A stretch of DNA of 11,097 nt from Pseudonocardiales bacterium (lineage in GTDB: Bacteria > Actinomycetota > Actinomycetes > Mycobacteriales > Jatrophihabitantaceae): positions 1 to 11,097 of the forward strand of contig JAVEEO010000015.1 of assembly GCA_030840415.1 (NCBI GenBank). Reading direction: 5' to 3'. This document shows, piece by piece, positions 1 to 2,930 of the stretch. The notes under the pieces were generated by a model, which was given only the letters and a program-made list of their open reading frames with translations, ran no database searches and was not told the DNA's origin. Position 1 is the stretch's first letter. Each line of letters starts with the position of its first letter. The translations under genes and the position numbers were made by a program.

Positions 1-1914
1 CGCGGAGGTGTTGGTGGGGTCCAGGTAGCGCAGCTCGTACCAGCACGAACCTGCCCAGTTGGGCATGGTGTTGGTCTCGCGCCGGTAGCGCTTCGGCCCG
101 TCCCCCAGATCCAGCTCGACGCTCACCCAGTCGGTCAGCCGGCCCAGCGGCGGCTCGGGCATCGAGTCGGCGTCGTCGGGCGGGTAGGACTTCGGGGTGA
201 AGTCGTTGGTCTCGGGCAGCACCAGCGGCAACAGCTCGTCCGGCAGCGCCACCGGCTGGTCGTTCTCGTCGTAGACGATCGGGAACGGCTCCCCCCAGTA
301 GCGCTGCCGGCTGAACAGCCAGTCCCGCAGCCGGTAGGTGGTGGCGCCGCGGCCGGCTCCGGTGCGCTCCAGGTAGTCGATCATCGCGGCCTTCGCCTCG
401 GCCACGCCCAGGCCGTTGAGGTCCAGGCCGTCGGTGGCAGAGTTGATCGCCGGCCCGTCGCCGGTAAAGGCTCCGCCGCTGGTTGAATCGAAGCCCTGGG
501 GCGGTTGCACGGTCCGCACGATCGGCAGCCGGAAGGACTCGGCGAACTCCCAGTCCCGCTCGTCCTGGCCGGGCACCGCCATGATCGCGCCGGTGCCGTA
601 GCCCATCAGGACGTAGTCGGCAATAAAAATCGGCAGCTCGGCCCCGGTCACCGGGTTGGTCGAGAATGCCCCGGTGAACACGCCTGATTTGACCTTGGCG
701 TCAGCGCCCTGGCGGTCCAGATCGGTCTTGGCGGCGGCTTCGGCCTGGTAGGCGGTGACCGCCTCGGCCGGGGTGGCGTAGCCGCCGGTCCACTCGGCCG
801 GGATGCCCGCCGGCCAGGCCGGCGCGGCCAGCTCGGCGACCAGCGGGTGTTCGGGAGCCAGCACCAGGTAGGTCGCCCCGAACAGGGTGTCCGGTCGGGT
901 GGTGAACACGGTCAGCCCGCCGGCCGGCGAATCGAAGGTGATGTGCGCGCCCACCGAGCGGCCGATCCAGTTCTTCTGCATGGTGCGGACCTTCTCGGGC
1001 CAGTCGATCTGGTCCAGGTCGGCCAGCAGCCGGTCGGCGTAGGCGGTGATCCGCAGCATCCACTGGCGCAACGGCTTGCGGAACACCGGGAAGTTGCCGC
1101 GCTCGGACCGGCCGTCCGCGGTCACCTCCTCATTCGCCAGCACGGTGCCCAGCCCGGGGCACCAGTTGACCGGCAGGTCGGCGACATAGGCCAGCCGGTG
1201 CCGGTCGATCACGGTGCGGCGCTGGGTGGCGTCCAGCTCTGACCAGGGCTTGGCGAAGTCGTTGGTGCCGGCGTCCGGCTCACGGCTGCCGGCATCCAGC
1301 TCGGCGATCAGCTCGGCGATCGGACGGGCCCTGCCGGCGCCGCCGTCGGCCTGCCGGTCGTAGAACGAATTGAAGATCTGCAGGAAGATCCACTGCGTCC
1401 AGCGGTAGAACTCCGGGTCGGTGGTCGAGACGCTGCGGCGCTGGTCGTGGCCCAGCCCCAACCCGCGCAGCTGGCGCCGGAAGGTCTCGATGTTGTGGTT
1501 GGTGGTGGTCGCCGGGTGCTGGCCGGTCTGCAGCGCGTACTGCTCGGCGGGCAGGCCGAAGGCGTCGAAGCCCATGGTGTGCAGCACGTTCTCGCCGCAC
1601 ATCCGCCGGTAGCGGGCATAGACATCGGTGCCGATGTAACCCAGCGGGTGCCCGACGTGCAGACCCGCGCCGGACGGGTAGGGAAACATGTCCATGATGA
1701 AGGTGTGCGGCTTGCCGGCCAGCCGCTGGAAACCCTCGCTCAGCTCGCCGGACGGATTGGGGGCGTTGAAGGTGCCGCGGTCGGCCCATACCTGCTGCCA
1801 GCGCGCCTCGATCTCGTTCGCCAGCGCGGCGGTGTAGCGGAACGGCGGCGATTCGGCATCGCCGGGCTGCGTGGTGCTCGCGGTCTCGCCGGGCTGCGCG
1901 GTGCTCGCGGTCAT
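1..1914 (-). CDS. leuS: Leucyl-tRNA synthetase, N-terminal 638 codons (3' end beyond window)
   Basis: Class I aminoacyl-tRNA synthetase that charges tRNA-Leu with leucine in the cytoplasm. The frame is open from the ATG at 1914 to the window edge. The HIGH signature appears as HVGH at residues 86-89, preceded by PYPSGAGL. The CP1 editing domain shows TTRPDT near residues 338-343 and [10 protein letters not shown] near 447-454, keeping the conserved Asp (451). [17 protein letters not shown] and the NTMPNWAGS stretch near the window edge are typical of LeuRS. The KMSKS loop would lie downstream, outside the window. The chosen ATG has GGAG ten bases upstream (GGGAGAG at 1923-1929). Residues 2-18 are a low-complexity Thr/Ala/Ser/Gln tail holding a tandem duplication, just before the conserved PPFRY start of the family. 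An attenuator-like leader lies upstream. Confidence 0.97.
1861..1914 (-). repeat. 27-bp tandem duplication at the 5' end of leuS
   Basis: Two adjacent copies, 1861-1887 and 1888-1914, match at 24 of their first 25 bases and differ at the last two. In frame they encode two 9-residue units, TASTAQPG and TASTTQPG each with one flanking residue. The period is a multiple of three, so the frame is kept. The repeat falls in the non-conserved N-terminal tail of LeuRS, ahead of the first family motif. Confidence 0.9.
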
Positions 1915-1954
1915 GATGGGGACTCTCCCGATCGTGTTGCATCGTGGGTGTGCT

Positions 1955-1974
1955 GGGCCGCTGACATCCGGCCC
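1955..1974 (-). other. Hairpin in the leuS 5' leader, between terminator and ribosome binding site
   Basis: On the transcribed strand GGGCCG (1974-1969) can pair with CGGCCC (1960-1955) around an 8-base loop. It lies after the terminator-like hairpin and 26 bases before the leuS Shine-Dalgarno sequence. Its role is unknown; a chance stem in GC-rich DNA is possible. Confidence 0.4.
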
Positions 1975-1986
1975 CGGACAGACGAA

Positions 1987-2012
1987 GAGCCCCTGCGCAG
2001 GCGCAGAGGCTC
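1987..2012 (-). terminator. Terminator-like hairpin of the leuS attenuator
   Basis: On the minus strand GAGCCTCTGCG (2012-2002) pairs over 11 bp, with one G-U, with CGCAGGGGCTC (1997-1987), closing a 4-base loop CCTG. The following bases TTCGTCTGTC are only partly U-rich, as is common for actinobacterial terminators. It stands 25 bases after the stop of the leucine-rich leader peptide and 72 bases before leuS, the position expected of an attenuator. It could also simply end transcripts from the octT operon. Confidence 0.7.
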
Positions 2013-2049
2013 GAGCCGCACTGGTCGGAAGCTGACTCAGCGCGGCTCG
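2012..2049 (-). promoter_or_regulatory. Hairpin overlapping the leader-peptide codons (1:2 stem of attenuator)
   Basis: CGAGCCGCGCT (2049-2039), which covers the last sense codons of the leader peptide and reaches its stop, is complementary over 11 positions (one G-U) to AGTGCGGCTCG (2022-2012), with a 16-base loop. It abuts the terminator stem and shares base 2012 with it. A ribosome paused on the leucine codons at 2060-2052 would cover its 5' arm, so its folding would depend on leader translation. I could not find by eye a strong competing 2:3 antiterminator, so the exact switching logic is open. Confidence 0.6.
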
Positions 2050-2072
2050 GTAAGAAGCAGGTGGGTACCCAT
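2037..2072 (-). CDS. Leucine-rich leader peptide [11 protein letters not shown] upstream of leuS
   Basis: An 11-codon ORF (ATG at 2072, TGA at 2039-2037) encodes three consecutive leucines at residues 5-7, read from CTG CTT CTT. CTT is normally a minor leucine codon in such GC-rich genomes, and none occurs in the 240 leuS codons I read singly (1-720). No Shine-Dalgarno sequence is visible, but a TACTAT element ends 7 bases upstream, fitting a leaderless mRNA. Paired hairpins and a terminator-like stem follow, then leuS. Such leader peptides act as sensors: scarce Leu-tRNA stalls the ribosome and alters RNA folding. Leader-peptide attenuators upstream of leuS have been predicted by comparative analysis in some Streptomyces. 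The role here is inference from layout; a chance small ORF is less likely given the Leu run and position. Confidence 0.75.
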
Positions 2073-2085
2073 GGCCTAGATAGTA
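2073..2085 (-). promoter_or_regulatory. Candidate -10 element for a leaderless leuS leader transcript
   Basis: TACTAT (2085-2080) fits the actinobacterial TANNNT -10 consensus. Seven bases separate it from the A of the leader-peptide ATG at 2072, the spacing expected if transcription starts at that A. No convincing -35 hexamer is visible. The element overlaps the last codons of octT. Confidence 0.5.
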
Positions 2086-2930
2086 CCCGGGAGCCGGCCG
2101 CCACGGGGCGCGGCCCAGCCGTCGCGCAGCTGGGCCGCTGCCCGCTCGCCCACCGCCCGATGGCAGCCCCAGCCCCAGTGCAGGCCGTCGACGTTCATCC
2201 CGGGGGTGCCGAGAAAGGGCTGCACCCAGGTGTCGAGGCGAAGCAGCTCGACCCCGACCCGGCCGCCCCAGTCCTGGGCAGCCCGGACCGCCGCCGGGTG
2301 GCCGGCCCGGACCCGCCCGTAACCTGGCGCGTCGTGCGGCGGCGGCACGATCCCGATGATCCTCACCTCCGGATGGAAGTGCCGGATCCCGGCCACGCAC
2401 CGACTCAGGTAGTGGTCGGTGAGCGGCTGCGGCAGGGTGCGCCAGCGACCGCGCAGCAGCACCGATCCCACCGGCTGGACCCGCCGGAACACCGCGGTGG
2501 CCGCGGTGCGCAGCGGCTTGGGACGCAGCAGCCGGATGCCCTCGCGCAGATGGGCCGGCAGCACGGTGGGCAGGTAGTCCATGCCGCCGACCGCCAGCAC
2601 TACGGCGTCGGCTCTCGGCAGCAGCACCGAGTACAGATGCGGATCGCGGGTGAGGGCGAACCAGGCGTCCCGGGCGGTCCAGCCGCGCCGGCCGAAGATG
2701 GTGGCCCGGCAGACCTGACCCGGACTGCTCAGCGCGCTGGCCAGCACGTTCGGCCACAGCTTCGGCTCGGTGGTCAGCTCGCCCAGCCCGGGGCCGTGGA
2801 AGGCCAGCGAGTCGCTGAGCACCAGGAGATTCCAACCGTCCTGGCGGCTCGAGCGGCCGACGCCGCCGAGAGAGCTCTCGCGGCGGGGGCGGCCCGCGCG
2901 GGCCGGGTGGTCGGCTGCCGGCTCAGGCAT
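2076..2930 (-). CDS. octT: SGNH-fold acyltransferase/esterase, OctT-like (diglucosylglycerate octanoyltransferase family)
   Basis: A 284-residue protein with SGNH-hydrolase blocks. The nucleophile block is [11 protein letters not shown] with Ser41, reading SDSL where the family usually has GDSL. The GxND-type block appears as GGMDYL at residues 115-120, and the terminal block is DGLH with candidate Asp248 and His251. In mycobacteria the homologue (Rv2418c) transfers octanoyl groups to diglucosylglycerate, an early intermediate of methylglucose lipopolysaccharides, and lies directly after gpgP and rsfS, the same order as here. The ATG at 2930 overlaps the phosphatase stop by 8 bp, and no separate Shine-Dalgarno sequence is visible, so translation is probably coupled. 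No signal peptide is seen, which suits a cytoplasmic enzyme. The SGNH fold is clear. The octanoyltransferase activity is inferred from synteny; a general esterase is the alternative. Confidence 0.8.

Follow-up and report, generated by a model that had tools for sequence, protein, structure and literature searches.

Does the short interval between octT and leuS in this actinobacterial DNA hold a switch through which the leucyl-tRNA synthetase gene responds to leucine? The window, that is, the whole stretch of 11,097 nucleotides analysed here, carries in this interval a compact series of elements, all on the reverse strand. The upstream gene, octT (2076..2930, stop TAG at 2078-2076), scores 226.5 bits against the NCBIfam model NF043016 (diglucosylglycerate octanoyltransferase), just under the cut-off of 250. 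Its last codons contain a candidate -10 box, TACTAT (2080..2085), 7 nt 5' of the ATG of an 11-codon leader ORF (2037..2072) that is probably leaderless. This ATG, at 2072, is 3 nt past the end of octT, and the ORF reads ATG GGT ACC CAC CTG CTT CTT ACC GAG CCG CGC TGA, in which CTG CTT CTT (2052..2060) are the regulatory codons. The final three sense codons and the stop lie within hairpin 1 (2013..2048), which has an 11-bp outer stem with three inner pairs and occupies the position of an anti-antiterminator. Hairpin 2 (1987..2012; 11 bp, 4-nt loop) is terminator-like and conserved in position, and it abuts hairpin 1 with no unpaired nucleotide between them. It is followed by the tail UUCGUCUGU (1978..1986), a weak U-tract with five U in 9 nt, and then by the leuS Shine-Dalgarno (SD) sequence, GGGAGAG (1923..1929). 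The 5' part of leuS (1..1914, ATG at 1914) extends beyond the window. In the fold of 2056-1910 the z-score was -4.63 and none of 200 shuffles was equally stable. Sequence and fold bear out the order given in the preliminary description, namely TACTAT box, 11-codon ORF, 11-bp hairpin, abutting 11-bp hairpin and SD. Consensus scans of 1600-2400 gave no sigma-70 promoter, the scan demanding a -35 element, and no terminator.

Attenuators of leuS are known in Streptomyces, and the leuS leader is of this described kind. They were predicted in S. avermitilis and S. coelicolor in 2005 (PMC1262725), and the S. lividans leuL2 peptide, MRAVRLLLSEPR* (asterisks mark stop codons), is described as leaderless by RNA-seq and as having a hairpin and uridines behind it (PMC8079986). 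The literature searched yielded no functional test of a leuS leader. The family link to the Streptomyces elements that had been proposed for this locus holds. Like leuL2, which has 12 codons, the window has a short ORF with a Leu run directly 5' of leuS and then a hairpin with uridines after it, and several of the leaders we retrieved carry the exact leuL2 peptide. The window peptide differs from that of S. lividans, and its U-tract is weaker, with the terminator scan silent. The leuS attenuators reported from S. avermitilis and S. coelicolor likewise combine a Leu-codon leader ORF with a terminator; an antiterminator is named in that account (PMC1262725), whereas here no such pairing rises above chance. 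The window also shares with classical attenuators a row of codons for the amino acid under regulation. The Corynebacterium ilvBNC and M. tuberculosis ilvB1 attenuators, as described in PMC11857589, PMC10272879 and PMC13236596, similarly have branched-chain codons in a leader peptide and then a terminator, and CUU is given there as a control codon in C. glutamicum. They differ in the gene that follows and in having an overlapping terminator and antiterminator, argued for with mutants. We consider it likely that leuS is under ribosome-mediated control by a leader of the LeuL2 kind, and leucine sensing by this leader is well supported.

Range of the leader and covariation of its stems

Upstream regions of leuS were retrieved through LeuS protein similarity, without use of the motif, and 60 of 61 genomes had a match. 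We examined 49 such regions, the window included; one of 66 nt (L038) was excluded, and genomes having only a divergent LeuS were left out of the set. The leader-bearing regions were chosen by eye and measured afterwards. They number 34 of the 49, or 33 of the 48 relatives, and share one layout: a box, a short Leu-rich ORF ending in a hairpin, then a second hairpin. Their peptides, conserved among relatives, include MAGVFLLLTEPC*. A lack of conservation among relatives had been named as the outcome that would speak against the element, and the opposite was found for both the Leu run and the stems. The leader is absent from the remaining 15 of the 49 regions. Within the window's genus it occurs in five of the seven relatives examined and is absent from two. 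One upstream region (L013) appears by eye to keep hairpin 1 without the Leu run or hairpin 2, as if decaying.

The covariance model R1 was built from a MAFFT alignment (A1) of 25 leaders, the window included, and several of the leaders that share the leuL2 peptide match it. Of the 246 class genomes searched, R1 has a match (E <= 0.1) in 150. The best 99 matches (E <= 1.5e-7) include 59 that sit 38-304 nt (median 63) 5' of a LeuS match of E <= 1e-40; a LeuS match of this strength is present in 116 of the 246 genomes, 56 of which have no R1 match at E <= 1.5e-7. The next gene was tested for 63 R1 hits from both groups, six loci of unknown offset being excluded. It is leuS, of two divergent types, for 62 of them and cimA for one. 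A set of 80 named actinobacterial leuS loci, taken as the best of at least 586 relatives of the window's LeuS and so biased towards its type, gave R1 matches in 70, including Micromonospora, Streptomyces, Geodermatophilus, Blastococcus, Jiangella, Actinoplanes and Saccharopolyspora. A search across the phylum (197 genomes) gave 19 with a match at E <= 0.001, seven of them outside the class (one strong, six weak). The sole strong hit outside the class (G375) encodes MAAALLLSPPR* and lies 5' of LeuS. The arrangement 5' of leuS is not due to chance, and its breadth across actinobacteria is new, as are the box spacing, the codon choice, the abutment of the hairpins and the sister leaders set out below.

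The genome G243 has two leuS genes, on contigs C5 and C30 (the latter locus L082), with the leader before both, while G267 has the leader before one of its two leuS genes (contig C1, locus L106) and no strong R1 hit before the other. The LeuS family model TIGR00396 was scanned for in the relatives L082 and L092.

The check for compensatory changes that the preliminary description had called for was made in two alignments. In the first, A4, 89 distinct sequences were aligned with R1, so that it is fitted to the structure and biased in its favour. Paired cells make up 98.6% for hairpin 1, and in 20 of the 89 sequences a C-G pair has become U-A at the first base of an Arg or Cys codon. Hairpin 2 is paired in 75.3%, because its register holds terminators of two kinds. 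The covariation score of A4 was 0.268 against 0.167 in shuffles, none of 500 being as high, and reached at most 0.121 when the structure was slid along the alignment; its further pair types were no higher than in shuffles (211 of 500 as high). In A1 the score was 0.280 against 0.185 (0 of 500; at most 0.178 when slid), and neither pairs in which both partners had changed (54 of 500) nor pair types (494 of 500) rose above the shuffles. Covariation of the stems is thus support for the structure and not proof of it, because kinship alone can push sequences above such shuffles without any structure.

Codon choice and spacing

A script was used to pick 92 leaders with a box 5-9 nt 5' of the start and at least two Leu codons, so that Leu runs and boxes were partly selected for and codon choice was not. 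The last Leu codon of the 87 distinct leaders is CTT in 72, CTC in 14 and CTG in one, which makes CUU or CUC the choice in 86 of 87. In the downstream ORFs, taken as the longest ORF, unnamed, after 73 of the 87 leaders, CTG makes up 79.7%, CTC 11.6% and CTT 1.5% of 2972 Leu codons, and CUU and CUC together 13.1%; seven genes of the window have CTT for 1.0% of their 312 Leu codons. At least three consecutive Leu codons occur in 76 of the 87 leaders, partly through the selection. The distance from the last Leu codon to the core of hairpin 1 is 5 nt in 69 of 77 leaders, the other ten of the 87 having yielded no spacing. Some leaders stop early (LLLT*, LLLK*) and still keep the GCC arm, and the tail of the peptide is therefore not the selected feature.

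In 71 of the 87 leaders TAnnnT lies 6 or 7 nt 5' of the nearest in-frame start, a count in which the box had been a picking criterion. For a cleaner test of the box, frame and start were derived from the hairpin arm in the 70 named loci that R1 had matched, which placed 64 of them and failed for six. TAnnnT is 6 nt (39 loci) or 7 nt (22 loci) from the start in 61 of the 64. This spacing, like the 7 nt of the window, is what a leaderless start would show, and the leader probably has the leaderless start that had been suggested for it. Among 66 named loci, 60 have CTT and four have CTC as the codon 5 nt 5' of the hairpin arm.

The codon bias fits the selective charging theory, as it is put forward in PMC1183508, and the contrast of 86 of 87 with 13% makes that theory of attenuator codons testable in high-GC bacteria. 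CUCCUU is also complementary to a Shine-Dalgarno sequence, and the bias therefore has two readings. By the wobble rules, a single tRNA-Leu isoacceptor decodes both CUU and CUC. In the window's genome ARAGORN was run on 12 of the 30 tRNA loci found; the only Leu anticodons among the 12 are CAA and CAG, with no tRNA-Leu(GAG), a result of little weight because the genome is 85.6% complete.

Candidate mechanisms

For ribosome-mediated control of leuS we infer the transcription start, the termination and the direction of the response as follows. Transcription would begin at the leader ATG. When charged tRNA-Leu is ample, the ribosome would clear CUG CUU CUU, finish at the UGA within hairpin 1 and depart; hairpin 1 would then close, hairpin 2 would form alongside it and transcription would stop near 1987. 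When charged tRNA-Leu is scarce, the ribosome would stall on the CUU codons. With the last Leu codon in its A site, a ribosome should cover the lower pairs of the 5' arm of hairpin 1. The front edge of the stalled ribosome would thus lie on this part of the arm, hairpin 1 would be unable to close, and RNA polymerase would pass hairpin 2 into leuS more often. The leader would in this way probably raise the output of the enzyme when charged tRNA-Leu is scarce. Two routes may lead from the loss of hairpin 1 to a weaker hairpin 2, either a weak, kinetic pairing between the segments 2 and 3 or help that hairpin 1 gives to hairpin 2.

The ribosome-mediated attenuation first proposed here stands in part: the conserved Leu-codon leader and its covarying stems support it, and the classical antiterminator lacks support. 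No strong antiterminator had been seen by eye. The 2:3 pairing of the window is -7.2 kcal/mol, and over 60 distinct pairs (9 of 82 located leaders having been excluded) such pairing is no better than in shuffled or non-cognate combinations (mean z +0.35; one of 60 with p < 0.1). Pairings of 5-7 bp are common among the leaders, simply from composition. When the leader is blocked to the edge of a stalled ribosome, minimum-energy folds of transcripts ended 9 nt past hairpin 2 lack hairpin 1 in all 75 leaders and keep hairpin 2 in 74. In longer transcripts three of the 16 leaders listed (L026, L041 and L102) have no hairpin 2 in the blocked fold, and L041 has none in the free fold either. The median pairing of the 5' arm of hairpin 2 in nascent RNA over 75 leaders is 0.41 stalled, 0.40 free and 0.53 with a shuffled upstream sequence, a control of little weight that also destroys the rest of hairpin 1. 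With no signal against shuffles or non-cognate pairs, and hairpin 2 persisting when the leader is blocked, a selected 2:3 antiterminator is not supported.

The abutment of the hairpins suggests that hairpin 1 may directly aid hairpin 2. In a sub-model of leader control, the same leader would have no antiterminator at all: hairpin 2, a poor terminator, would terminate efficiently only with a closed hairpin 1 abutting it, and the stalled ribosome would remove hairpin 1 and so let polymerase pass. We hold this as a serious possibility that falls short of being probable. The gap between the hairpins is 0 nt in 55 of 73 leaders and 0-2 nt in 70 of 73, hairpin 2 having been sought only from -1 to +5 nt; 2:3 pairing is not selected; and the leader block removes hairpin 1 only. 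However, good U-tracts are found in many relatives, with at least five U in the 9-nt tail of 63 of 76 leaders, and the 2:3 pairing that arises from composition might act as a weak kinetic antiterminator, as is argued for C. glutamicum ilvBNC in the account of PMC11857589. How such attenuators operate is the sharp question that the abutting hairpins raise.

A less probable reading, which we think improbable for leuS, is translational: the Leu-codon run would pair with the leuS SD until a ribosome on that run freed it, a scheme already proposed for the leuA LEU element. As described in PMC1262725, that element resembles the window in its leucine-codon leader in actinobacteria and differs in having a pseudoknot and a base stem of Leu codons with the SD, and no terminator. 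Such control would also explain the CUC CUU codons, CUCCUU being complementary to AAGGAG. In some leaders, L007 and L128 among them, the pairing partner is an SD-like stretch, and over 75 leaders, which are related sequences, pairing between leader and downstream sequence slightly exceeds that of shuffles (mean z -0.35, Wilcoxon p 0.0009). Yet cognate pairs are no better than non-cognate ones (p 0.69 and 0.11), a comparison that is not very telling since the SDs are alike. For the window itself z is +0.64, GGGAGAG is a poor partner for CUUCUU, and the LEU element with its SD stem is not supported. No T-box or other Rfam family was recognised by its family model: the window has no match at gathering score and only four weak, unrelated matches at E <= 10, and ten loci with leuS, cimA, leuA-like or ilvB leaders have none at gathering score. 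Lastly, it is very improbable that nothing is regulated here, the hairpins being the octT operon terminator, which so close to octT would block read-through, and the short ORF a product of chance, because a whole class keeps the Leu codons, the box, the codon choice and the spacing, and these accompany leuS of two divergent types.

For ribosome-mediated control of leuS we also count a similar leader in the same genome, before ilvB. Against it we count the lack of an antiterminator signal, the retention of hairpin 2 when the leader is blocked, the weak U-tract of the window, the silent scans, the regions without a leader and the two covariation measures that were not above shuffles. In Firmicutes, according to the account in PMC1262725, T-boxes control most synthetase genes and classical attenuation controls none. 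Our comparison suggests that in much of the class Actinomycetes leuS is instead controlled by a translated leader, kept before two divergent LeuS types. A reporter built on the leader could double as a sensor of LeuRS inhibition.

Sister leaders and other elements upstream of leuS

Twenty weaker R1 hits were retrieved, for which the next gene is cimA in 14, a divergent leuS in two, ilvB in one, a LeuA-like gene in one (called by eye, 32% to CimA) and unassigned in two. With L129 as a fifteenth case, the cimA leaders are at loci L084-L090, L093-L096, L098, L099, L101 and L129; the proteins were identified as CimA by TIGR00977 in four cases and by tblastn in the others. The leaders before cimA (citramalate synthase) carry Ile codons, for example MFYGLLIIGRRAG*, MTHWMIII* and MFYCMIII*, and have the same abutting pair of hairpins (alignment A3). 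No report of a cimA leader was found in the literature searched. In the window's own genome ilvB is preceded by the leader VQHLVLID*, with TAGGGT 7 nt 5' of its GTG (L144, contig C273, upstream of 5868), then by a hairpin and a T-run terminator; no such leader was seen before its cimA. Sister leaders precede cimA and ilvB and, probably, leuA. We put forward as a conjecture, rather unlikely to hold as a whole, that leaderless leader-peptide switches of one family are very widespread in actinobacteria, upstream of leuS and, in versions with Ile/Val/Leu codons, of cimA, ilvB and probably leuA, and that they work with no mutually exclusive antiterminator. The part removed by the stalled ribosome would be the hairpin 1 that abuts the terminator, and the leuS version would read one Leu isoacceptor (CUU/CUC).

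Other arrangements were observed before leuS. Where the leader is absent, leuS itself often looks leaderless by eye, with a TAnnnT-like box a few nt 5' of its start (L014, L016, L019, L025, L029, L050 and L051). In four regions from one family of the same order (L021, L023, L024 and L032), the sequence 5' of leuS shows by eye a box, a short ORF-like start and a hairpin that is strong, terminator-like and accompanied by a T run, but no series of Leu codons; this arrangement is possibly a different sensor. In family relatives of the window, a stem-loop some 50 nt long (GGTGCCCCCGCG...CGCGGGG...GCACC; z -4.3 and -5.6) is conserved 5' of leuS, at loci L007, L008, L010, L011, L014, L016, L018, L020, L022 and L025. 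It is absent from the window's genus and gave no Rfam match at eight loci. One strong copy of this stem-loop is present in 11 of 24 genomes of the family, and 10 of the 11 copies lie close 5' of leuS.
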